Positions 2,010 to 18,396 of a DNA stretch of 24,504 nt are shown in pieces. Position numbers and translations under genes: made by a program. This DNA comes from a virus. The notes below the pieces were generated by a model, which made no database searches, was not told where the DNA came from, and saw only the letters and a program-made list of their open reading frames with translations. The DNA lies in the IMG/VR virus record IMGVR_UViG_3300022413_000038, positions 1 through 24,504 of that record; one strand, written 5' to 3'. The first letter of the stretch is position 1, and each line of letters begins with the position of its first letter.

Positions 2010-2945
2010 TTACTTGACGAAGGCGGCGTCGGTGATCGAGGTCAGCCGCGTCATGCAGAACGGGTGCTCGTCGACAAGGCCCACGTCCCAGGCAAAGTGC
2101 GTCCGGTAGGTGATGCCGTTTTCCAGCAAGCCCTTGTCATCGAAGTCCATCGCCCGGATTTGGATGGCGAAGACGCCATCGTCGCCGAAGCTGACAATGA
2201 AGATCGACGCGGTGACGGCGGCGCCGCCGCCCTGGCCGACTTCGTTGTACGGCAGGATGACGCCGTGCTTGTCGCGCGGATAGCCCCACAGGATCGGCAG
2301 ACCGGCGTAGGACATCTTCACCCCGCCGACCTGATCCCAGGTCTGGATGACGAAGCCGGAAAGCGTCGTGTCGCGCGCCGCCTGGATGAACCGCGGCTGC
2401 ATGTCGCGCGAGGCGATGATGTGCGACGGCTGGTATGTGTTCTTGATGGCGTTGTCGAGATTGTAGAGGGACAATGCCGCGCCGCCGGAGGCGGTCGAAT
2501 TGTGAAGCAGCCGCTCGCCGGTGGCGCGCTGTTTCAGGCCGTTGAATTCCTTGACGTTCGTGGTGTTGTCGCCGGCCAGGAACGTATCGGTCCACAGCTT
2601 GCCGGCCGAGGCCATTGCCAGCCGCTCCTGCTTGGCGCGGCGGCTCTGGCCGTGACGGTCGACGATCGCGCGGTCGACGTCGAGGTCGTGATCGAGGATG
2701 AACGAGCTTTCCTGGAACGGCGAGATCGTGCCTTCGCCCGACGTGCCAGCCTCGTTGATGGCGCGGAAACCGAGCACCGGCAGTTCTTCCTCGCGATACC
2801 CCTCGTAAACGCCGGAGCCGCCAACGCCCTCGAACCGCAATGCGGAAAAGATATCCGAGGATGCCGCAAAGGTCTCGACAAGCGGTCGCTCGATCGAGTC
2901 CTTCTCAAGCCCCTTGGCGTATTCAGGAAGCGTCATCGTGTCCAT
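2010..2945 (-). CDS. Major capsid protein (HK97-fold, Bbp17/podovirus type)
   Basis: A 311-residue protein opening MDTMTLPEYAKGLEKDSIERPLVETF, then SSDIFSALRFEGVGG, LPVLGFRAINEAG, and a long central region with IDDLIA-type helices (LYNLDNAIKNTYQPSHIIASRDM). This is the usual pattern of podovirus major capsid proteins ('T..E.AK......R..iieTF.e.s.il..lpf..i.g'). Length matches the family. It follows the scaffold by 11 bp and has AGGGGATTGAATT upstream of the ATG at 2945, the same ribosome binding site as the cement gene. This fits high and matched expression of the two virion proteins. Confidence 0.85.
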   Translation of the reverse strand: MDTMTLPEYAKGLEKDSIERPLVETFAASSDIFSALRFEGVGGSGVYEGYREEELPVLGFRAINEAGTSGEGTISPFQESSFILDHDLDVDRAIVDRHGQSRRAKQERLAMASAGKLWTDTFLAGDNTTNVKEFNGLKQRATGERLLHNSTASGGAALSLYNLDNAIKNTYQPSHIIASRDMQPRFIQAARDTTLSGFVIQTWDQVGGVKMSYAGLPILWGYPRDKHGVILPYNEVGQGGGAAVTASIFIVSFGDDGVFAIQIRAMDFDDKGLLENGITYRTHFAWDVGLVDEHPFCMTRLTSITDAAFVK

Positions 2946-3700: not shown

Positions 3701-3911
3701 CCACTGACCCTGTGTTTTCCGCCAAATTGATCAAAATCAGCGCAAGATTGCGCCGCCCTCGAAACTCCTGCAACGCACTGACTTCCGGACCCTCCTTTTC
3801 GTAGAGGATCGCGTGCAGCGATTCCTGCATCAGGCGGCCTTCAGGCGTGGCGAATGCCCGCCGCCAGGCGTTCTGGACGTCTTCGTCCTTGAGAGAGAGT
3901 TTCGGTTTCAT
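3615..3911 (-). CDS. Bbp19-like small phage protein
   Basis: A 98-residue protein. Residues 13-55 carry AWRRAFATPEGRLMQESLHA and then GRRNLALILINLAE. This matches the Bbp19 family pattern ('vf.TPEGR.vL..Ll...' then 'GRRnvgL.Li'), known as a small gene next to the portal in BPP-1-like phages; its role is unclear. The ATG at 3911 overlaps the portal stop as ATGA. The last ~28 residues (from about GRTGPGTEP) come from DNA that also codes the scaffold N-terminus and look like run-on rather than a conserved domain. One copy of the repeated late element lies inside the coding region. Confidence 0.65.
   Translation of the reverse strand: MKPKLSLKDEDVQNAWRRAFATPEGRLMQESLHAILYEKEGPEVSALQEFRGRRNLALILINLAENTGSVDVGRTGPGTEPAAARRPGSRRRGPAGRE
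3768..3779 (-). repeat. Late-region 12-bp element, copy 2
   Basis: Minus-strand AGTGCGTTGCAG, a perfect copy, preceded by AAGTC as in copy 5. It lies inside the Bbp19-like gene, where it codes Ser-Ala-Leu-Gln, 67 bp upstream of the scaffold start. Confidence 0.75.
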
Positions 3912-5464
3912 TGTTCCCCGCCAGGCTGTTCGGCGCCCGCGGTCGCGGCGCCCTGCAGAATGCCGGCGACCAGCTGCTCGACGCGGTTCGGATCGCGAAG
4001 TTCGACAATCTTGTCGCCGAGTTTCTTCTTGATGTTCTCGATCGTGCGCAGCTCGTCGATCGCCGCCGCGCTGGTCTCCGGCATCAGACCCTTGGCGATC
4101 TCAAGCAGCCGGACCGCGATCTGGACGTCGAGCTGTTCCTGCGCCTGCGCCGCCGGATTGTTCGGCACCAGCGCGATCGCCTTGCCATCGCTCTCGATGT
4201 TGAATTCGTCGAGACGCCCGCGCTTCTCAAGCAGATATTCATAGCGCTTGAAGACGGCCGCCGGCCCTTCGTCGAAAAACTTCTTGCCTGGCGTGCCGAT
4301 GCGGCGCTGCGACAGCACCATTTCGTCGACCCACTGCGTTGCCGTCGGCGGGGTGTCGCCGCGCTGCTGCGGGTAATCGGCATAGAACTGGCGCCGGATC
4401 CTGCGCTCGATATCGGCCAGCGTGTAGAACCCGATATCGGCATCGCCGCTGAAATAGAGCGGTACGAAGTCCCGGCCGGAACCGGGGCGCATCGGATAGG
4501 CCATGCCCGATTCGATGCCCTGCTCGAAGTTCACCACGCCGTCGTCGGGATAGCCGATCGATGGATTGACCGACTGGTCGGCCCGGTCCTGCGTTGCCAT
4601 CGTCAGCGCGTCGAGCACCCGCAGGTTCGGCAGCGAGGCGATCGCCGGGCCGTTCCCCCAGGGCTGCAGCGCGTGCGGCAGGAAGCGCATGACAATATGC
4701 GGGCATGCTGCCTCGCCTTCCAACCGGTCACGCCAGACAACTTCGTCGCATACGGTGATCTCGGCCTGCCAGATGAAATCCTCAGTCACGTTCCAGTCGC
4801 GCCAGTGGCCCCATGCGACCGGGTAGAATTCGTTGGCCTTGGCGCCGATCTTCTTGCGAATTTTCTCCGGAAGATCGATGCCCTTCAGGATGTCGGGGAT
4901 CTGCCGACCTCGAAGATGGCGGACAATGAACCGGTCATCGACGCGGCCGTCAGGCCCGAGATTGATCTCCGTTTCGCGGATCGGATGATGTTGCACATGG
5001 ATCGGATCGAAGCCGTTTGGCTCGTCGACCCACAGCGATACGGTGCCGACGGACAGGTCGGGAACGAGCGCCGTGCCGATCTCGGAATTGAAGTTCGACG
5101 CCCGGATGCCGCGGAAGATCGCGTCGTCGCGCTTTCTCACATCTTCCTCGACCGCCTTGAACCGCTCGTCCGGCACGCCCTCGCCCGCGCCGCTTTTCGC
5201 CCAGTTCAGATGCTCCGGGAAGAACCCGTTGATGACCTCGGTGGCAAAATCGACCGACACTTCCGCGCCGATATCGGTCGCCAGCGTGTCGGCGTCCTTT
5301 TCGACCGTCTGTGAAGGTTTCGTCTGCGAAAGCACCTGACGCGCCAGGCGCGGGTTGGTGAAGAAATAGGCTTCCTGCAGATCGAGCTGGATATCCGACT
5401 TGTGGGCGCGGGCCGCCTGCAACCGCTCCTTGAAGCCGTCATGGTCCTTCTTGTCGAAGGCCAT
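3908..5464 (-). CDS. Portal / head-to-tail connector protein (T7-like family)
   Basis: A 518-residue protein of the podovirus head-tail connector family, the dodecameric ring that forms the DNA entry vertex. Visible marks are an N-terminal helical region, EVSVDFATEVINGFFPEHLNW, SLWVDEPNG, the long PVAWGHWRDWNV strand region, RFLPHALQPWGNGPAIASLPNLRVLD and a C-terminal TPPTATQWVDEMVLSQRRIG stretch. The pattern 'W..G.g.a..alp.i..ln' is typical. The size (usually 500-560) fits. The start at 5464 overlaps the preceding small gene by one base (TGATG), and the stop overlaps the Bbp19-like gene by four. It sits after the terminase, as expected. Confidence 0.9.
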   Translation of the reverse strand: MAFDKKDHDGFKERLQAARAHKSDIQLDLQEAYFFTNPRLARQVLSQTKPSQTVEKDADTLATDIGAEVSVDFATEVINGFFPEHLNWAKSGAGEGVPDERFKAVEEDVRKRDDAIFRGIRASNFNSEIGTALVPDLSVGTVSLWVDEPNGFDPIHVQHHPIRETEINLGPDGRVDDRFIVRHLRGRQIPDILKGIDLPEKIRKKIGAKANEFYPVAWGHWRDWNVTEDFIWQAEITVCDEVVWRDRLEGEAACPHIVMRFLPHALQPWGNGPAIASLPNLRVLDALTMATQDRADQSVNPSIGYPDDGVVNFEQGIESGMAYPMRPGSGRDFVPLYFSGDADIGFYTLADIERRIRRQFYADYPQQRGDTPPTATQWVDEMVLSQRRIGTPGKKFFDEGPAAVFKRYEYLLEKRGRLDEFNIESDGKAIALVPNNPAAQAQEQLDVQIAVRLLEIAKGLMPETSAAAIDELRTIENIKKKLGDKIVELRDPNRVEQLVAGILQGAATAGAEQPGGEQ

Positions 5465-5649: not shown

Positions 5650-6091
5650 GAATATCCCCGCTCACAATGGTTCCACCGTGGGCCAGACAATCGCGGAAAA
5701 ACGCATCGGGACGCAACGCACTGGATTTGACGCCGGTCAGATGCGCCACCTGCGGCACGCACCAGGCGCCCAATTGCAGCCGGCGCTCGAAATGCGCGAA
5801 CGGCGGAATGACGGAGACGATCGTCGACCTGAAGGAAAGCGCTCCGATCAGATCGTCGGCCGCCTCGTCGGGAACGACCAGCACCTGGGATTGCGCATAT
5901 GTCCAGGAATAGAACAGCCAGCCATCGACCGATTCCACGTAGCCGAAGGCCGAGACATGCCGGAACCGCTGCCGCCAGGTCAGCGCCCGCGCCAGCCGGA
6001 GCGGGCTGTCATGATGGAAGACGACGAACCACCGGAGCGGCCGGCACATCACTTCCGGCAGGGGCGGCGCCAGCGATTCAACCCGCAGCAT
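5516..6091 (-). CDS. Conserved phage protein between terminase and portal, unknown function
   Basis: A 191-residue frame. Residues ~18-140 look like a folded domain: RWFVVFHHDSPLRLAR, RQRFRHVSAFGYVE, GWLFYSWTYAQSQVLVVP and RLQLGAWCVPQVAHLTG. Proteins with a '.vF.HD....LA..l...FRH' opening recur at this position in related phages. The last ~45 residues overlap the following 61-residue gene in another frame and are Gly/Pro/Ala-rich, so they are probably run-on after loss of an earlier stop. The start at 6091 overlaps the large terminase stop by 14 bp; Met15 (6049) is an alternative. Function not known. A copy of the repeated late element lies inside it. Confidence 0.6.
   Translation of the reverse strand: MLRVESLAPPLPEVMCRPLRWFVVFHHDSPLRLARALTWRQRFRHVSAFGYVESVDGWLFYSWTYAQSQVLVVPDEAADDLIGALSFRSTIVSVIPPFAHFERRLQLGAWCVPQVAHLTGVKSSALRPDAFFRDCLAHGGTIVSGDIHGQRAEAGSGSEAPAPGGPGGQAGIDTGPCVVADRCTGAPVRRP
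5711..5722 (-). repeat. Late-region 12-bp element, copy 3 (diverged)
   Basis: Minus-strand AGTGCGTTGCGT, matching the first ten of twelve consensus bases. It codes Ser-Ala-Leu-Arg in the gene at 5516-6091 and lies 61 bp upstream of the small gene that precedes the portal. Confidence 0.55.
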
Positions 6092-7631
6092 AGCGGCGCA
6101 GGCCCTTTTTCTTTTTCGCGTACCGCACCGGCTGCGAGCGTCCGCCGACCTCGCCCCGCGTCATCGAACGGCCCTCGCCGGCGCCGAGCATCATGTACTG
6201 CAGCGCATCGCAGACGTCGCTGTACTTGTCCTTGACCGGCTTCGGCTCGCTCATGGCCAGGTTCGCCGTCTTCTGCATGTGGTACCCGCCGGCCATACCC
6301 ACCTTCAGCGTCCGGCAGGCCCAGGGATCCAGCAGGAACCGCGGCAAGCCGTTCGACATGCCGCGCAGCACGAAATCGACGGCATCGATGCGGGTCTGGA
6401 TATTGTTCTGCTTGACCGGCGCCGGATGCACGATCATGCCGTGCGAGCGGTAGACCTCGTAGGCTGTGGTCTCGTCCGTCTGCACGCCGTCCTGGCCCTT
6501 CGGATCGCCGTAAATCTCGATCTCGAACCCGTCATAGTGCTGCGTCAACACCCGCTGCACCTTCGGCGCGAATTCCGAGGCGCCCTCCGCCCGGCCGATC
6601 AGCTCGCGCTGGATCGACCAGCGGCCGTTGATCTCCTGGCCGAACACCGCCGCCGGGTTGCGCCCGAAGTCGAGCCCGACGAACACCTTCCAGCCCGGTA
6701 TCGGCTTCAGCGCCGCCTTCGCCACATGGGTTTCGAGGCTGAAGTTCTTCCAGACCGGATCGCCCTCGACGTAGATCGTGATCCGGTTCATCAGCCGCGA
6801 ATCGATCCACTGCTTCGACTTGCCGAACCGCTTTTCCTGGTAGAAGCCCGGTTTCAGCCAGATCACGTTTTCCGCGTCCGGGTTGACGTCGTAGCCGGCG
6901 ATCGAGCCGTCGGCCGCCTTCTGCTCGATCAGCGCTGGCGGTTGCACAAAATAGGACCAGTTCGGCGGCTGACGGAACGCCTGTCGTTCGTCCTCGCTCC
7001 AATGGTCGGGGAACGGCACCTCGCCCATCATCAGCGGCACCCAGTGATCCTCGTTCGGCGCGTTCATGTCGCCGAGCACGCCGTCCCATCGGCAGCCGCC
7101 GTCTTTCACCGCAGGGAAACGCCCGGTCCGCGATTCCGCCTCGTCGACCAGCGCCTTGTCGATGAACTCCAGCTCGTTGAACCAGAACCCCGTCACCTCG
7201 AGAGAACGCATCTTGCGCACGTCATCGGGCGAATCGAGCGCAATGAACCAGACTTCCATCTCAACGTCGGCGATCTTGACGATATGCCGGAACGGCCGGT
7301 CCCAGTAGAAGCGGCCGTAAACGTCCTCGGGGAACCAGTCGAGCCAGGTCTTGACCGTCGTGCCGCGCAAATCCGGGAACGTGTTGCGCACCACGACCCA
7401 CCTGGTGCGTCGAACCCCGTCGGGCCCGGGATGCTGCGCCATCGCCAGCTTGAAGATCTTCATGCAGCAGGCCGCCGACGTCCCGGACCCGATCGGCCCC
7501 CGGATCAGCGAAACGTGGCTCTCGTCGGCAAGGAAATGCGCCAGAACGCGCCCGGCCGGCCGGTAGATCTTCTGCCCGGTCTTGGCGTCAGTCTCGATCT
7601 TTGGAGGGTCGGCAAGGGCGATTTCGCTCAT
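6078..7631 (-). CDS. terL: Terminase large subunit (DNA-packaging ATPase/nuclease)
   Basis: A 517-residue packaging motor protein. The ATPase part has a P-loop at residues 45-52 (GPIGSGTS) and Walker B within GFWFNELEFI (about 150-160). The C-terminal RNase H-like nuclease shows VGLDFGRNPAA (about 323), IYGDPKGQDG (about 376) and YSDVCDALQYMM (about 480), with acidic residues as expected for metal binding. The P-loop is unusual: the lysine normally before the last Ser/Thr is Thr51 (ACG where AAG would give Lys). Arg44 just before the loop might substitute. No strong ribosome binding site precedes the ATG at 7631. A repeated late element lies 28 bp upstream. Confidence 0.92.
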   Translation of the reverse strand: MSEIALADPPKIETDAKTGQKIYRPAGRVLAHFLADESHVSLIRGPIGSGTSAACCMKIFKLAMAQHPGPDGVRRTRWVVVRNTFPDLRGTTVKTWLDWFPEDVYGRFYWDRPFRHIVKIADVEMEVWFIALDSPDDVRKMRSLEVTGFWFNELEFIDKALVDEAESRTGRFPAVKDGGCRWDGVLGDMNAPNEDHWVPLMMGEVPFPDHWSEDERQAFRQPPNWSYFVQPPALIEQKAADGSIAGYDVNPDAENVIWLKPGFYQEKRFGKSKQWIDSRLMNRITIYVEGDPVWKNFSLETHVAKAALKPIPGWKVFVGLDFGRNPAAVFGQEINGRWSIQRELIGRAEGASEFAPKVQRVLTQHYDGFEIEIYGDPKGQDGVQTDETTAYEVYRSHGMIVHPAPVKQNNIQTRIDAVDFVLRGMSNGLPRFLLDPWACRTLKVGMAGGYHMQKTANLAMSEPKPVKDKYSDVCDALQYMMLGAGEGRSMTRGEVGGRSQPVRYAKKKKGLRRYAAG

Positions 7632-7659
7632 GCCCGCACAATGCCGGACCAGTCAGCTG

Positions 7660-7671
7660 CTGCAACGCACT
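7660..7671 (-). repeat. Late-region 12-bp element, copy 4
   Basis: Perfect minus-strand copy AGTGCGTTGCAG, 28 bp upstream of the large terminase start and outside any coding region. Copy 1 has nearly the same spacing to its gene. Confidence 0.75.
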
Positions 7672-7680
7672 AGGTTGAGC

Positions 7681-7810
7681 CGGTCAATCGTTAACAAATG
7701 ATTAATGTTAATCTGTGGTTAACCATAACGGTGTACAAGTGATATCAGATTTTGATCAGGTATTTAGGATTATCCTGTGGTTAAGTGTGCTATTCGGCGG
7801 TCAATCGGTT
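7681..7810. promoter_or_regulatory. AT-rich palindrome cluster upstream of large terminase
   Basis: This stretch is far more AT-rich than its surroundings and holds several short perfect palindromes: GATTAA-tg-TTAATC (7700-7713), GGTTAACC (7717-7724), TGATATCA (7740-7747), TGATCA (7753-7758) and AGGAT-t-ATCCT (7766-7776). It also has two direct repeats: CTGTGGTTAA at 7713 and 7775, and CGGTCAATCG at 7681 and 7798. It could hold operators, a packaging (pac/cos) site or part of an origin. No coding frame of note is present. The role is inference; the repeats are seen directly. Confidence 0.45.
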
Positions 7811-7848
7811 GTTTCGACAATTATCTGTGCAAAGCTGCTGAAATGAAA

Positions 7849-7873
7849 GGGCGAGTCTGCTGACAGACCGCCC
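7849..7873 (-). terminator. Hairpin, possible terminator of minus-strand transcripts
   Basis: GGGCG-a-GTCTG, loop CTGA, CAGAC-CGCCC gives a 10-bp stem with one bulged A. On the minus strand it is followed by TTTCATTT, a moderately U-rich tail. It could end transcripts coming from the upstream small genes before the large terminase. On the plus strand no T-run follows. Confidence 0.4.
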
Positions 7874-7889
7874 CTCCATCTAACGTCGC

Positions 7890-7978
7890 CACAATGTGGG
7901 GCCTGGCAGGTTCGCCGGATGGGACCCTAGTCAAGTACCGCCGGTCGGTTCGAGTCCGACCAGGTCCACCGCATTGTG
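7890..7978 (+). ncRNA. Structured element with tRNA-like acceptor and T-arm, possible noncoding RNA or tRNA relic
   Basis: On the plus strand GGGCCTG (7899-7905) pairs over 7 bp with CAGGTCC (7961-7967), and GTCGG (7944-7948), loop TTCGAGT, CCGAC (7956-7960) is a perfect tRNA T-arm abutting the acceptor strand. ACC follows at 7968. An outer stem CACAATG/CATTGTG (7890-7896 with 7972-7978) extends the helix. Two wobble pairs (G7901-U7965, U7897-G7971) fit RNA on this strand only. The 38 bases between acceptor and T-arm give no convincing D-arm, nor a 5-bp anticodon stem with a 7-base loop. I therefore call it tRNA-like, not a working tRNA. It lies in the gap between small-terminase-side genes and the large terminase, opposite to the late genes. 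Confidence 0.5.
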
Positions 7979-8043
7979 ACAACGCAAGTGAACAATGTCT
8001 GTATTAGGCACTTTTGTGAAGGCCGATCGTAAACATTACATTA

Positions 8044-8073
8044 ATTATACATTAATTTTTCGCCAATGGTGAA
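8044..8073 (-). promoter_or_regulatory. Possible minus-strand promoter in terminase intergenic region
   Basis: On the minus strand TTCACC, an 18-bp spacer and a perfect TATAAT (8044-8049) lie just downstream of the 88-residue gene. The region has TACATTAAT as an 11-bp-spaced direct repeat (8037-8045 and 8048-8056). It would transcribe toward the hairpin at 7849 and the large terminase. The -35 box matches only 4 of 6 bases. Confidence 0.35.
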
Positions 8074-8076
8074 CAA

Positions 8077-8343
8077 TTACTCGTCCCCGCACCAAGCCCT
8101 TTCCAGCTGGTGAGATCTCAGACGAAGCCCACCGATCGTCTTCGTCACGTCCTCGACGCCTTCCATTCCTGTCGTCACCGAGCCGTCGGCATGGTTGACC
8201 ACAGTCGAGATCCCGCACATCTCACCTGCCTCGGCCATGATCAGCAAATTACGGCAATATTCGACAACCGCCGCGTTCGCCCGCCCAGGGGTCGCGATTG
8301 GCTGCCCGTGCATCCCGATGACATTCGACGTTTCGTCGCTCAT
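8077..8343 (-). CDS. Small conserved phage protein, unknown function
   Basis: An 88-residue protein opening MSDETSNVIGMHGQPI, with a helical centre (NAAVVEYCRNLLIMAEAGEMCGI) followed by a strand-like stretch (STVVNHADGSVTTGMEG). Small phage and rhizobial proteins with 'vve.Le.ll..A..Gei.g.......dG' have this shape. I do not know a function. The ATG at 8343 overlaps the preceding gene's stop as ATGA. It sits between small and large terminase genes. Confidence 0.6.
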   Translation of the reverse strand: MSDETSNVIGMHGQPIATPGRANAAVVEYCRNLLIMAEAGEMCGISTVVNHADGSVTTGMEGVEDVTKTIGGLRLRSHQLERAWCGDE

Positions 8344-8808: not shown

Positions 8809-9303
8809 TCACTCTGCAACCTCGTCCGCCTCGCTCAAAGGCTTGGCGTCATGTTCATTCAGGCTTCCTATCTGACCGTCGATCTCGTACCCGCTCAAGT
8901 CGATGACATAGCCAGGCGTTGAGACGTTCACGCCCACACCGACGTTGACAGTCACTCCGCTTTTCTCGTTGCCGTCCAGGTACTTGGCCGCATCCAACCG
9001 CACCTTGTCGCTCTCGCTCTTGTCCCTGAGCTCTATGCCCGTGTGCAGGTTCCGGGCTCGCTCTGAGGTCCGTAACACCTGCAATTGCTCGTTATAGTGC
9101 TGGACCACGGCTGGTTGCCGGAAAGCTTGATACATCGAGTGATCGGTCAACCCGACGCGCTGCGCTGCGGTTTTGCGGTCGCATCCTTCGAAGACCATGC
9201 ATTCGATTGCGGCTTTGACCTTCCGGCTCAGGCGGCTGCCTGGTTGCCGTGCTGGTTTCCGTTTGCGCCCTGGTGCAGCGATTGGGGCTGTTCGTGCCGT
9301 CAT
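8809..9303 (-). CDS. terS: Terminase small subunit-like DNA-binding protein
   Basis: This 164-residue protein starts at ATG 9303 (MTARTAPIAAPGRKRKPARQ). A TTG at 9360 could extend it by 19 residues, but the extra part is poorly protein-like. Residues ~28-65 hold a helix-turn-helix (AAIECMVFEGCDRKTAAQRVGLTDHSMYQAFRQPAV), followed by a helical oligomerisation region (LQVLRTSERARNLHTGIELRDKSESDKVRLDAAKYLDG) and a flexible acidic tail. This is the layout of small terminases, which select packaged DNA. Its place as the first late gene supports this. No strong ribosome binding site is seen. Confidence 0.65.
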   Translation of the reverse strand: MTARTAPIAAPGRKRKPARQPGSRLSRKVKAAIECMVFEGCDRKTAAQRVGLTDHSMYQAFRQPAVVQHYNEQLQVLRTSERARNLHTGIELRDKSESDKVRLDAAKYLDGNEKSGVTVNVGVGVNVSTPGYVIDLSGYEIDGQIGSLNEHDAKPLSEADEVAE

Positions 9304-9365
9304 GTGGGCTTCATCTGCTGATCTCGGGGAGGCTGCGCGCGAGAGTGCGCCGGGCGTCAAATGGT

Positions 9366-13123: not shown

Positions 13124-13778
13124 CGTTCCATCGTCCTTGATTGAGCCAGGTTATCGCTTGAGCAACGTAGGTCGTGCCGATCTTGCCATCGGCCTCCAGG
13201 CCGGTGCGGTATGCCGCGGCGGCGGCGACGATCCGTGCCGGGTCAACGCCGCTGTTGAGCACGGCAACGAATTTCTTCAGCGCCGGAGCACGCGGATTCG
13301 AACCGGCCCGCCTCGGGTATTCGGACCAGAAGGCCTCGAAGTGTGGAAGGGCGTTCGATTTGGTCCAGTGAATCCCGTCTTTTTTGCCTATAGGTTTTTT
13401 CTTATCTGTATCTGTATCTGTATCTGTATCTGGGGCCGTTTCAGTAACGTTTCTGGAACGTTGCCGATGGCGTTTCACTCGCTCAGTAGAAGTGTCTGAT
13501 TTATATTGCCGTTTCTTCCATGAAACGATTTGAAACGTTTCACCAACCGTTACGATCAGACCGGCCTCAACAAGAGTGTGAAACGCCGATGAAACGGTCT
13601 GTTTTGTTTCACGAAACGCGAATGAAACGTCATCGATCGTTCCAATATTGCCGTCCTTTGAATTGAGATTGCAGGCAAGATACAGGGCATTGTGCCAAGC
13701 CTTGAACGCAGCATCCGGCAACCGCTGGATTTTCGGATCGTTCAGTGTCTCACCATAGGCCCGGAACCATTGGTTCAT
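13014..13778 (-). CDS. Phage replication initiator (O-like) with embedded repeats
   Basis: A 254-residue protein from ATG 13778; the longer frame start at 13925 is rejected. Residues 1-90 form a winged-helix initiator domain (MNQWFRAYGETLNDPKIQRL, KAWHNALYLACNLN, VSFAFRETKQTVSSAFHTLVEAGLI, FQIVSWKKRQ). A basic linker (ERVKRHRQR) and an acidic Asp-Thr repeat (about 117-125) separate a C-terminal domain (HFEAFWSEYPRRAG, IVAAAAAYRTGLE, YVAQAITWLNQGRW). This matches lambda O-type/rhizobial phage initiators that bind repeats in their own gene. The coding DNA holds eleven GAAACG/CGTTTC hexamers. The start overlaps the GcrA stop as ATGA. Confidence 0.75.
   Translation of the reverse strand: MNQWFRAYGETLNDPKIQRLPDAAFKAWHNALYLACNLNSKDGNIGTIDDVSFAFRETKQTVSSAFHTLVEAGLIVTVGETFQIVSWKKRQYKSDTSTERVKRHRQRSRNVTETAPDTDTDTDTDKKKPIGKKDGIHWTKSNALPHFEAFWSEYPRRAGSNPRAPALKKFVAVLNSGVDPARIVAAAAAYRTGLEADGKIGTTYVAQAITWLNQGRWNDDYSPGEISGRSDQRGREGPAHPFVAGMADALSECD
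13376..13629. other. Candidate phage replication origin: hexamer iterons plus AT-rich tract
   Basis: GAAACG or its complement CGTTTC occurs eleven times in 193 bp: CGTTTC at 13437, 13448, 13471, 13510 and 13536; GAAACG at 13522, 13532, 13580, 13591, 13613 and 13624. One pair forms the palindrome GAAACGTTTC (13532-13541). To the left lies a T-rich strand (13378-13404) and 4.8 copies of the hexamer ATCTGT (13404-13432). The combination of initiator-gene iterons next to an easily melted tract resembles lambda-type origins. The repeats are seen; origin function is inferred. Confidence 0.6.
13404..13432 (-). repeat. Tandem 6-bp repeat (4.8 copies) coding Asp-Thr
   Basis: The plus-strand unit ATCTGT is repeated four full times plus five bases. 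On the minus strand it codes the alternating Asp-Thr linker of the replication initiator. Copy-number change would alter linker length without a frameshift. It is too short and lacks the spacer structure of a CRISPR. Confidence 0.8.
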
Positions 13779-14257
13779 GCGGCACGCTCCTGCCTGATCC
13801 AGCCGGAGCCTTCGCTGACCGAAACTGCAGCGTGTGCCTCGCAATAGGGCTGACGGTTGCCCTTCATCACCGGCTGACCGCAGCAGACGGCATTTTTCAT
13901 GTCGTCGTTGATCATCCAGGCGCACTGCTTGTCCCTGCGCGTTAGGAACGGGATGCCGATCCCATGCAGCGGCTCGATCTCCGTGTGCGCCGGCTCAGCC
14001 TTGGCTTTTGGCTTCGTCTTGGCGCGTTTCATCCTGATCGGATGCGATCGCCCGCCTGTTCCGCCCTGCCCATCCCGGTTGACGGCAATGCGCCCTCCGC
14101 CGCCGTTCAGCTGGATCCTGTAACGACTGGCATAGCCGATCACCATGTTCCGCGTTGCCCCGTCGATCTGCATTGCGATCTGGCCTGCCGACAAGCCGGC
14201 CGATGCACCCTGCTCAATAATTTCGATACGCCGCTCCGGCGTCAGGTCACTCCACAT
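13775..14257 (-). CDS. gcrA-like: GcrA family cell-cycle regulator (phage-encoded)
   Basis: A 160-residue protein opening MWSDLTPERRIEIIEQGASAGLSAGQIAMQI, then ATRNMVIGYASRYRI. This is the GcrA DNA-binding signature ('W...rve.L..LW..G.SA.qIA..LG.vTRNAVIGK..R'). A basic linker (KRAKTKPKAKAEP) leads to a C-terminal Cys/His module (QCAWMINDD, AVCCGQPVMKGNRQPYCEAH), as in host GcrA, which binds sigma-70. Host GcrA activates cell-cycle genes at methylated GANTC sites; a phage copy may steer host or phage transcription. The stop overlaps the initiator start. The start overlaps the upstream gene by 11 bp. Confidence 0.82.
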   Translation of the reverse strand: MWSDLTPERRIEIIEQGASAGLSAGQIAMQIDGATRNMVIGYASRYRIQLNGGGGRIAVNRDGQGGTGGRSHPIRMKRAKTKPKAKAEPAHTEIEPLHGIGIPFLTRRDKQCAWMINDDMKNAVCCGQPVMKGNRQPYCEAHAAVSVSEGSGWIRQERAA

Positions 14258-15076: not shown

Positions 15077-15506
15077 CACGGAAGCCCCGCGGCCAGCTGC
15101 TGTCTGACAGAGCGTGCACTTCGACATGCAGCGCCGCGCGGGAGCCGAACAGTTTTGCAAAGTGTACAACCGCCACCCGGGCGTCGTCAGTCCATACGAT
15201 CTGATTGAGACCGTCCTTGACGATCTTCTGGATGTTATCGCCGTCGGGCTTTGTCGCCTTGAAATGGCTGTCGACTTCCACCCGCCGTCTCTTGGTCATC
15301 GACTTTGGCCAGGGGTAAACGGCGATCAGCCGCAACTCGACAGCATGGTCGACAGGATCGCGATCGCCCATGGCATCCGCTGCCAGGGAACGAATGACGG
15401 CCTTATAATCGCGCTGCCGCTTGGGCGTGAACCGGGGCGTGCCCTTGCCGCCGCCGGTCCGCGCCCAGGGCACGATATTGCCCGGCACCTGAAACGAGAC
15501 GATCAT
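15069..15506 (-). CDS. rusA: RusA family Holliday junction resolvase
   Basis: A 145-residue protein opening MIVSFQVPGNIVPWARTGGG, with the RusA signature KPDGDNIQKIVKDGLNQIVWTDDARV at about 86-111. The acidic residues (Asp88, 90, 98, 107, 108) match the metal-binding set of the family. Length is typical (about 120-150). It cuts branched recombination or replication intermediates, probably before packaging. ATGA overlap with the upstream gene and 8-bp overlap with the methyltransferase place it firmly in the operon. Confidence 0.88.
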   Translation of the reverse strand: MIVSFQVPGNIVPWARTGGGKGTPRFTPKRQRDYKAVIRSLAADAMGDRDPVDHAVELRLIAVYPWPKSMTKRRRVEVDSHFKATKPDGDNIQKIVKDGLNQIVWTDDARVAVVHFAKLFGSRAALHVEVHALSDSSWPRGFRDA

Positions 15507-16153
15507 GCAGGTTCCGTTTCGGGCTCCGACGTTTCATCGAACTCGGCGATCGGGGCCGCCTCGGCGTGATCAGCTGGGGATTGATCAGCTTGGTCTCCGT
15601 TATCCGGGGCGGCCCCTTCTTCTCCGGCGGTGTCGCCTGCGCCGGAGGAAGCGGATTTCTCCGCGTTCTTTTTTTCCATCGCCGATTTCAGGTCCTCACC
15701 CATCATCCGCTGGCCTTCGTGCCAGCCGCGCATCCAGGCCTGCCCGGCTTCCGTCGATTCCTCGTGCGGCGGCTTGGGATCCCTGGCCAGCAGACCGGCG
15801 GTCCGCCCGGCCGCGAATGCCGCATCGGTGAGTGGCGTGCGGTCAGGCTCGCTGAACAGGTCAATCTGCTGGCCGACCGGCAGGCCCATCCAGGCGGCAA
15901 TCTGCATCCACTCCTTCATCTCGTCGACAATGATCGAATCGTCCTCGATATCGTTCATGCGCATCGCTTCGTCGATCAGCGCCAGCTTGAAGCCGTCGGC
16001 CTTCGCCAGCTTGCGCAGCCGGTTCAGTTCCTCGCGCTCGCGCTGCACCGCAGCCGCTTGCGCCACGATCGGGTTGAGATGGTGGAAGAACAGCGCCTCG
16101 CGCTCCTCCGGCGTCAGTTCTGTTGTGAAATTCTCGCCGCTTTCGTCCGTCAT
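15503..16153 (-). CDS. Conserved phage protein with RMF-like middle segment
   Basis: A 216-residue protein. Residues ~10-70 are helical (LTPEEREALFFHHLNPI, REELNRLRKLAKADGFKLALIDEAMRMND). Residues ~105-150 contain AAFAAGRTAGLLARDPKPP then STEAGQAWMRGWHEGQ, a repeat-like pair resembling the 'A...G..Ag..g......P......a..W..GW..G' layout of ribosome modulation factor-like phage proteins. The C-terminal ~50 residues are low-complexity acidic. The start at 16153 follows AGGAGACCAGCA. Function not known; an effect on ribosomes or DNA is speculation. Confidence 0.62.
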   Translation of the reverse strand: MTDESGENFTTELTPEEREALFFHHLNPIVAQAAAVQREREELNRLRKLAKADGFKLALIDEAMRMNDIEDDSIIVDEMKEWMQIAAWMGLPVGQQIDLFSEPDRTPLTDAAFAAGRTAGLLARDPKPPHEESTEAGQAWMRGWHEGQRMMGEDLKSAMEKKNAEKSASSGAGDTAGEEGAAPDNGDQADQSPADHAEAAPIAEFDETSEPETEPA

Positions 16154-17697: not shown

Positions 17698-17703
17698 GCC
17701 TTG

Positions 17704-18396
17704 ATGAGTGAACTGGCAGAAAATTTAAAAAGCAGGTGCAAGGCCTTAGGCTGGAGCCAGGCAAGGCTGTCAAAAGAGATATTATCTGTGACCGGCGATC
17801 GCGTTTCGCAGCAAACGATCGCCGGAATTGAAACTGGTGAGCATTTGCACACGAGATATTTGCCGCAGATCGCCAGAGCACTCGGTGTGAAGGCGGACGA
17901 TCTCGATCCGGCCTATTCCGGAACCACGAGCGACCAAGGAATGTCAGACGTTCGTCAGGCAGACATTGTGCCGCCCCGTTTGACTGAAATGGAACGTGAC
18001 GTCCCGGTCATGGGTACAGCTGCCGGTTCGGAGCAGGGTTCATTTCATTTTGAGGGTGGTGTCGTCGATTATGTCCGCCGACCGCCGGCCCTGATCGCGG
18101 CCCGGGACGCCTATGCAATCTTCGTCACTGGCGATTCCATGGAGCCCGTTCATCCACAGGGCGAGCTCAGATTCGTTCACCCGGGGCGCCAGCCGCGGTC
18201 CGGCGATTCGGTGCTGATCCAGTTACAAGAACAGGATGACGGCTCGGTCGAGTGCTTTATCAAGATCCTGAAGAAGCGGGCCGGCGGCCAAATCGTGACC
18301 GAGCAGTTGAACCCAGCCAAGGATCTGAAGTTCGATGACGCCAAGGTGCTTTACATACACAAGGTGCTGACGATGAACGAGCTGTTTGGTGTTTGA
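17704..18396 (+). CDS. cI: CI/LexA-type phage repressor with S24 peptidase domain
   Basis: A 230-residue repressor. Residues 1-65 are an XRE helix-turn-helix (ENLKSRCKALGWSQARLSKEI, SQQTIAGIETGEHLHTRYLPQIARAL). The linker carries the likely self-cleavage site Ala107-Gly108 (VMGTAAGSEQ). The C-terminal S24 domain has the catalytic Ser145 in GDSMEP and Lys187 in FIKILKK, with spacing as in lambda CI. RecA-stimulated self-cleavage would trigger induction. The start is ATG 17704; TTG 17701 is possible. No ribosome binding site, so a leaderless message is likely. The gene lies between two promoters that share its probable operators. Confidence 0.9.
   Translation: MSELAENLKSRCKALGWSQARLSKEILSVTGDRVSQQTIAGIETGEHLHTRYLPQIARALGVKADDLDPAYSGTTSDQGMSDVRQADIVPPRLTEMERDVPVMGTAAGSEQGSFHFEGGVVDYVRRPPALIAARDAYAIFVTGDSMEPVHPQGELRFVHPGRQPRSGDSVLIQLQEQDDGSVECFIKILKKRAGGQIVTEQLNPAKDLKFDDAKVLYIHKVLTMNELFGV

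Follow-up and report, generated by a model that had tools for sequence, protein, structure and literature searches.

An intergenic tRNA-like element of a temperate phage, a possible copy of a mobile family of noncanonical RNAs with alanine identity

What is a structure resembling the acceptor stem and T-arm of a tRNA doing beside the large terminase gene, terL, of a phage, on the strand opposite to that gene? The question was raised by a reading of the sequence alone, which saw no D or anticodon arm in this element and proposed a tRNA mimic, a decoy for tRNA-modifying or charging enzymes, a packaging-linked RNA or a decayed tRNA. The whole stretch of DNA analysed, called here the window, is an IMG/VR record of 24,504 bases from a temperate phage with alphaproteobacterial relatives, which also encodes an exonuclease VIII-like gene and, cut at the right contig end, an integrase-like ORF whose relatives adjoin tRNA genes like integrases. 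The features of the phage used in the following are:

2010-2945, minus strand: major head protein
3908-5464, minus strand: head-tail connector gene
6078-7631, minus strand: terL
7632-8076, no gene assigned: interval of 445 nt from terL to the next late-strand ORF, holding the element
7708-7722 and 7770-7784: direct repeats TTAATCTGTGGTTAA / TTATCCTGTGGTTAA, in the same interval
7849-7873, plus strand: hairpin GGGCGAGTCTG-CTGA-CAGACCGCCC just 5' of the element, with comparable hairpins upstream of other members
8809-9360, minus strand: terS-like gene
17701-18396, plus strand: repressor

The gene nearest to the element is terL, 268 nt away on the opposite strand. Within the 445-nt interval the flanks of the element are AT-rich, and the direct repeats are presumably DnaA-box-like. 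Two minus-strand genes noticed elsewhere in the phage encode a GcrA-like cell-cycle regulator (13775-14257) and a protein with a ribosome modulation factor domain (15503-16153). The phage relatives gathered via TerL, at 5 viral and 17 genome loci, had different content in the interval corresponding to 7632-8076, and no tRNA-like match was found between their terS and terL; viral scans with the neighbouring 88-aa ORF and with the integrase gave no relatives. The parts of the element, all on the plus strand, are listed below with the evidence for each:

7890-7898: outer stem, 5' strand, pairing with 7970-7978 (sequence, folds)
7899-7905: acceptor stem, 5' strand GGGCCTG, G3 at 7901 (sequence, family pairing)
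7906-7915: minimal D hairpin GCAGGTTCGC, 2 bp, loop AGGTTC (comparative folds, pair counts)
7916-7918: outer anticodon-arm stem, 5' strand CGG, pairing with 7941-7943 (two-sided changes at 3/3 pairs)
7921-7939: cryptic anticodon-like hairpin GGGAC-CCTAGTCAA-GTACC, 4/5 pairs (fold of the homologue L169, alignment)
7927-7933: 7-nt loop reading CTAGTCA, with the triplet AGT (AGU) at 7929-7931 (alignment)
7941-7943: outer anticodon-arm stem, 3' strand CCG, directly abutting the T stem, without a variable region
7944-7960: T-arm GTCGG-TTCGAGT-CCGAC (sequence, family pairing)
7961-7967: acceptor stem, 3' strand CAGGTCC, U70 at 7965 (sequence, family pairing)
7968-7971: discriminator A73 (7968) followed by CCG; CCA not encoded (sequence)
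7970-7978: outer stem, 3' strand (sequence, folds)

The acceptor stem described by the sequence-only reading is indeed complete, with 7/7 pairs, one of them G.U, and abuts a perfect T-arm of 5/5 Watson-Crick pairs, the middle between the acceptor 5' strand and the T-arm being 38 nt long. The outer stem that it reported is present, but its length is 9 bp (7890-7898 with 7970-7978) and not 7, and it was not seen as a feature of the family described below.

Could such a structure arise by chance? A search for TTCRANT loops on a T stem of 5 bp, preceded at 25-61 nt by a 7-bp acceptor, was made in simulated sequence (100 Mb, one strand, Markov, with the dinucleotides of the window) and gave 15 loose matches and none as strict as that of the window; against 0.007 loose matches expected per window, the window has one. 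Related phage loci totalling 404 kb gave only one other match, which is a true tRNA-Thr (L016). A chance origin, already doubted on reading the sequence, is not supported. ARAGORN and Rfam gave no confident tRNA call. ARAGORN found 0 genes in the window, Rfam at curated cut-offs called nothing, and the models RF00005 and RF00023, run on the entire window with E values up to 10, had no match; an ordinary tRNA was ruled out on the lack of ARAGORN and RF00005 calls. The low-threshold mitochondrial mode of ARAGORN reads the triplet AGT at 7929-7931, which is not significant by itself, and at lowered thresholds one of 272 calls in the window coincides with 7899-7970 and is, for that number of calls, meaningless alone. 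Of the parts of a canonical tRNA, the window has the 7/5 acceptor-T branch with its T-loop; the D-arm with a U8-N9 linker, the 5-bp anticodon stem and the variable loop were not found.

A covariance model built from the window element only (R1) was applied to 150 genomes from the order to which a relative's host belongs, and its output consisted mostly of tRNA-Met genes (7/10 fetched loci) plus one odd locus, L100, with the same layout as the window element and the common unpaired motifs GCAGGT and ACCCTANNCAAGT. The two-sequence model R2 added L108, L109 and L111 from 397 genomes, and the five-sequence model R3, over 385 alphaproteobacterial genomes, found L127 and L128 at 66 and 65 bits; below 64.8 bits its next scores come at 39 bits, the level at which tRNA-Ala genes set in and at or below which the tRNA genes crowd. 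By blastn the window matched L123 (the L108 locus) over 77 nt at 80.5% identity (E 2e-14) and L124 (the L109 locus) over 80 nt at 75% (E 1e-9), while annotated phages and plasmids gave T-arm or other partial matches, or none. Among viral contigs of IMG/VR, a first exact 28-mer and a first gapped pattern found 0 contigs; a further pattern search yielded L169 (89 bits), L166, L161, L177, L171, L176 and L164, and a second round of viral contigs L182, L183, L186, L196, L200 and L202. Phages and IS1595-family transposons thus both carry these RNA-shaped homologues, which are 70-76 nt long. The models or patterns that brought in most members had been seeded by the window, a procedure favouring similar sequences, and the survey, covering a few hundred genomes and narrow DNA patterns, is a lower bound.

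For comparative analysis, 14 of 30 matches, those above 45 bits, were aligned; a 21-member alignment added 6/24 new viral loci (50.8 bits and above) and L158, which at 39 bits was included because of its shape and its IS1595 neighbour. L197 and L203, whose elements duplicate those of L182 and L200, were dropped, and L159, L162, L180, L189 and L195 were excluded. Chance looks the likely source of L110, L112, L114 and most matches below 30 bits. A second group of elements in viral contigs, 62-64 nt long (L160, L163, L167, L168, L172-L175) and most of them beginning GGAGTGGCAGGTTTGCC, and L170 were not assigned to the family: their fitted 3-70 pair is A-U and the acceptor pairing is incomplete. 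Two further observations were made in passing. Two viral contigs (L179:218-286 and L181:4637-4705) hold a tRNA-like element that is shorter still, having a T-arm and only about 21 nt in its middle; the acceptor in L179 reads, by eye, GGGCGCT/AGCGCCC. At L159:9942-10088, a tRNA-like element lacking G3.U70 is followed directly by a gene that ARAGORN calls tRNA-Val, at a locus with an IS1-like transposase and two small ORFs, toxin-antitoxin-like by eye, neither of which Pfam names.

In the 14-member alignment, 96.2% of 210 cells pair, two-sided changes occur at 10/15 pairs, and the covariation score is 0.611, against 0.167 for shuffled alignments and at most 0.109 when the partner strand is slid. 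With 21 distinct members, 94.4% of cells are paired, two-sided changes occur at 10/17 pairs, and the score is 0.519 against 0.152 shuffled and at most 0.126 slid. The acceptor, T and middle stems all covary across members, showing a fold conserved by selection at the RNA level. The proposal of a decayed tRNA fares badly here, since the stems covary, the acceptor and T-arm are intact and homologues lie in unrelated elements. Decay or chance would account for CCG in place of CCA, for the mismatches in the anticodon-like stem and for the silence of ARAGORN; with a perfect acceptor and T-arm, an odd shape common to the homologues and 0 strict matches in 100 Mb, we find either origin barely credible.

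The same homologues bear on the strand. The sequence-only reading placed the element on the plus strand, opposite to the late genes, because two pairs (7897.7971 and 7901.7965) wobble only there. Those wobbles are real, but three pairs further out (7883/7985, 7887/7981 and 7889/7979) wobble only on the minus strand, so that the argument does not settle the matter by itself; moreover, the single-sequence fold z is better for the minus strand (-4.21) than for the plus strand (-2.75). It is instead the 21-member covariation analysis that supports the plus strand. A scan of 7500-8200 for promoters and terminators was uninformative: it revealed no sigma-70-like promoter on the plus strand. A single promoter-like site lies in the interval, at 8073-8044 on the minus strand, and reads toward terL through the antisense of the element.

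The relatives also revise the view that the 38-nt middle has no D or anticodon arm. Constrained folds of the relatives show a D hairpin of 2-3 bp, GC(A)GGTT(Y)GC, directly after the acceptor, and a two-part anticodon-like arm with a loop of 7-9 nt; in L169, whose sequence is closest to that of the window, the fold consists of GCA-GGTT-TGC followed by CGG, GGGAC-CCTCATCAA-GTTCC and CCG. The D hairpin is paired in 85.7% of cells in the 21-member counts, with little variation, and by folds and alignment the element has this mini hairpin, no linker and no variable region. The anticodon-like arm cannot be seen in the window alone, because its stem has mismatches there, and single-sequence folds of the window, L108, L161, L171, L182 and L202 favour different pairings. 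Regular 7-nt loops occur in L127 (CTTACAA) and L196 (CTTGCAC), and the aligned loop has C32 in 16, U33 in 15 and A38 in 18 of the 21 members, counts that the aligner may flatter. Judged from these comparisons, the anticodon arm is cryptic, not absent. Its triplet is hypervariable, with 16 different triplets in 21 members.

The end of the acceptor behaves quite differently. G1-C72, G2-C71, G3.U70 and A73 are each invariant in 21/21 members, and G4-C69 is present in 19/21, the window being one of the two exceptions, with C4-G69. The bacterial alanine identity set is given as A73, G2-C71, G3.U70 and G4-C69, in a table that lists no anticodon position (PMC9976931); the window thus has the first three and lacks the fourth. 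The count of 21/21 for G3.U70 is not unbiased, because search patterns fixed bases in 13 viral members: U70 in seven, and G3, G4, C69 and U70 in L182, L183, L186, L196, L200 and L202. The window, L100, L108, L109, L111, L127, L128 and L158 were not forced in this way, although the covariance models carried the G.U pair. In the least forced test, with U70 fixed and base 3 free, G3 was found in 7/7 viral members above 45 bits and A3 in none. When the scan was relaxed to leave base 70 free, no further member above 45 bits appeared; the one likely relative among its matches, L180 at 34 bits, has G3-C70. With the triplets variable and the alanine set fixed, amino-acid identity looks fixed and codon identity free across the family, and the idea of a tRNA mimic or a substrate of charging enzymes gains support from the covariation and the alanine identity set of the 21 members.

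Where do these elements reside? An IS1595-family transposase lies near each of the four members first examined and also near L157 (the L128 locus) and L158. The seven bacterial genomes hold one PF12762 copy in five cases, two in G201 and three in G324, and in 6/7 of them no more than 1.7 kb separates the element from an IS1595-family transposase (5/6 without L158, from G133); by our own estimate, for one copy in 3-5 Mb, roughly 0.1% per genome would be expected. In L122, L123, L124 and L157, inverted repeats enclose the transposase, passenger genes and the element, the passengers including nucleotidyltransferase/HEPN and SocA-like genes. Two viral contigs, L164 and L182, carry an IS1595 transposase; none was found in the DNA fetched around the other phage members. 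The window has no transposase nearby and no recognisable IS end, that is, neither the transposase nor the terminal inverted repeats that would make the element part of an IS1595 unit, and its strong match to L123 and L124 is confined to the element itself. Homologous flanking DNA was seen beside the elements of L122 (6996-7215) and L125 (3715-3934), perhaps the same insertion target.

The neighbours in phages are various. The element is upstream of terL and on the same strand in L176 and L177, beside an antiterminator gene in L161, beside HNH genes in L169 and L177, and in L166 at a locus with a TnpB-kind transposase and two tRNAs; terL is within 0.3-2 kb in 4/14 distinct viral members, the fourth through L203, which shares its element with L200. 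A packaging-linked RNA, as had been suggested, is weakly supported, the bacterial members being in or by transposons and the window element opposite terL.

The setting of some members would fit a function in cis, in which the tRNA-like fold would end or process the transcript of the upstream gene, with an RNase P cut at the acceptor and trimming at A73, and so stabilise or regulate the mRNA, like the tRNA-like structures at the 3' ends of viral RNAs. In L122, L125, L159, L164 and L166 (5/16 loci), a same-strand ORF of 200 aa or more ends 6-180 nt before the element, and the upstream hairpins are collectively strong, with a mean rank of about 0.21 over 16 loci. These hairpins are a trend across members and not special in the window, where the hairpin is no stronger than random 65-mers (rank 0.51). 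We consider this function unlikely: no such ORF is present in the window, L123, L124 or most phage members, and the kept alanine identity with its free triplet would be left unexplained.

The palindrome of the T-arm, the AT-rich flanks with the direct repeats at 7708/7770 and the integrase-like ORF cut at the contig end could instead indicate a site acting as DNA, either a transposon end or, derived from the 3' end of a tRNA, a phage attP core or recombination site. That appears highly improbable, since the relatives of the integrase have a tRNA gene close by (10/14 loci) while 15.6 kb separates the element from the integrase, the acceptor has both of its strands and these covary, no IS1595 end was found in the interval, and no tRNA 3' end within 3 mismatches was found in 12 genomes of the relatives' hosts, which may not be the host of this phage. 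An attP was rejected on position and covariation. A copy of a host tRNA was rejected as well: 3'-end matches with 1-3 mismatches were found in 16/385 alphaproteobacterial genomes, the seven checked loci holding tRNA-Leu, Ala and Met, plus one His neighbour.

The explanation that we prefer, and to which we give slightly more credence than doubt, is that the element belongs to a mobile family of noncanonical RNAs that resemble tRNAs and bear alanine identity, predicted alanyl-RNAs carried as cargo by selfish elements; in the window phage it would stand alone, upstream of terL and on the other strand. The RNA would be released by the usual tRNA-end enzymes, and CCA would mostly be added, as it is encoded in only 6/21 members; the host AlaRS would charge it with alanine, reading G3.U70 and not the anticodon, and the charged RNA would be bound by EF-Tu. 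The comparison of sequences shows a conserved fold, alanine identity elements, a variable triplet and mobile carriers; from these we infer the further steps, namely expression, maturation, CCA addition, charging, EF-Tu binding and an effect on host translation. AlaRS does not need the anticodon, so that a free triplet with a fixed alanine end fits the misreading of varied codons or a charged decoy. Since the alanine end is kept and the triplet is not, the use of the RNA should depend on its being an alanyl-RNA and not on one codon; it may compete in translation or ribosome rescue, or act as a donor inserting alanine at other codons. Against this explanation stand the C4-G69 pair, the CCG end and the anticodon-like stem mismatch of the window, its better minus-strand z, the negative scan for a plus-strand promoter, the G3-C70 of L180, and the bias of searches that were seeded by the window and partly fixed at G3 or U70. 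A bolder extension, which we hold only tentatively and think rather doubtful, is that phages and IS1595-family transposons spread alanine-charged, free-triplet RNAs which would place alanine at other codons, or jam ribosomes as a charged mimic, and so poison or steer host translation, perhaps as an addiction or anti-defence device. If the explanation is true, mobile elements carry a recurrent RNA that escapes both Rfam and a standard tRNA finder and whose amino-acid identity is fixed while its codon assignment is free, and the selfish use of misreading tRNAs or tRNA decoys against hosts becomes directly testable.

No description of the family was found by title and abstract in searches of an open-access library, and it may be in print elsewhere. 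Among known RNAs, it shares with tRNA-Ala the 7-bp acceptor with G3.U70, A73 and the T-arm, but has no U8-N9 linker, normal D-arm or variable loop, its triplet is mostly not that of alanine, and ARAGORN does not call it. Likeness to the tRNA-like domain of tmRNA (RF00023) extends to the alanine identity, the D-region without a proper stem and the T-arm; tmRNA, which accepts only alanine, is described with a reduced D-loop lacking a stem (PMC3968760). A decoy derived from tmRNA, namely its tRNA-like domain without the messenger part, could bind SmpB and AlaRS and blunt trans-translation, and RF00023 is the best tRNA-clan match of the excised element, on the whole model, in the window (E 3.7e-4), L100 (3.6e-6) and L169 (1.3e-5). 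These matches, however, score 13.5-18.6 bits (13.5 for the window) against a gathering score of 47, L157 has none, and, as noted above, the scan of the whole window gave none. Moreover, the tmRNAs of these hosts are permuted and have a different T-arm, the middle of the element resembles an anticodon arm and, at only 38 nt, holds neither a messenger-like reading frame nor pseudoknots. We regard such a decoy as quite improbable.

IS1595-family transposons with passenger genes are a further known system close to the proposed alanyl-RNA family, with the element inside or beside them in 6/7 bacterial genomes, whereas the phage copy has neither transposase nor IS end. Short-D viral tRNA-Ala(UGC) genes (L185, L187, L188, L191-L193, L199 and L201) share GCAG directly after the acceptor, G3.U70 and the CTTGCAA loop, but differ in their regular 7-nt anticodon loop, alanine triplet, 4-bp D stem and ARAGORN calls; they are possible ancestors of the family. 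Genes of this kind, including L190, have a 4-nt D loop and a D stem that starts immediately after the acceptor, and ARAGORN calls all of them except L190. Similar in idea are the allo-tRNAs, which are likewise noncanonical and come from bacteria and soil metagenomes (Mukai et al. 2017, as reviewed in PMC7609411), and whose amino acid is set by acceptor elements, in some G3:U70, and not by the highly diverse anticodon; one allo-tRNA-like sequence is linked to a transposon ORF, and an association of such sequences with mobile elements or toxin-antitoxin systems has been proposed (PMC7609411). The present family likewise appears to combine diverse anticodons (16 triplets in 21 members) with identity by acceptor elements (G3.U70 in all). 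Allo-tRNAs have a 12-bp acceptor branch of 8/4 or 9/3 and a longer variable arm (PMC7609411), while the family has a 7/5 branch, no variable region, a D hairpin of 2-3 bp and an extended, interrupted anticodon arm. On the 7/5 branch without a variable region, we do not count it among the allo-tRNAs, similar as the idea is; if our explanation holds, it would form a natural scaffold class beside them.
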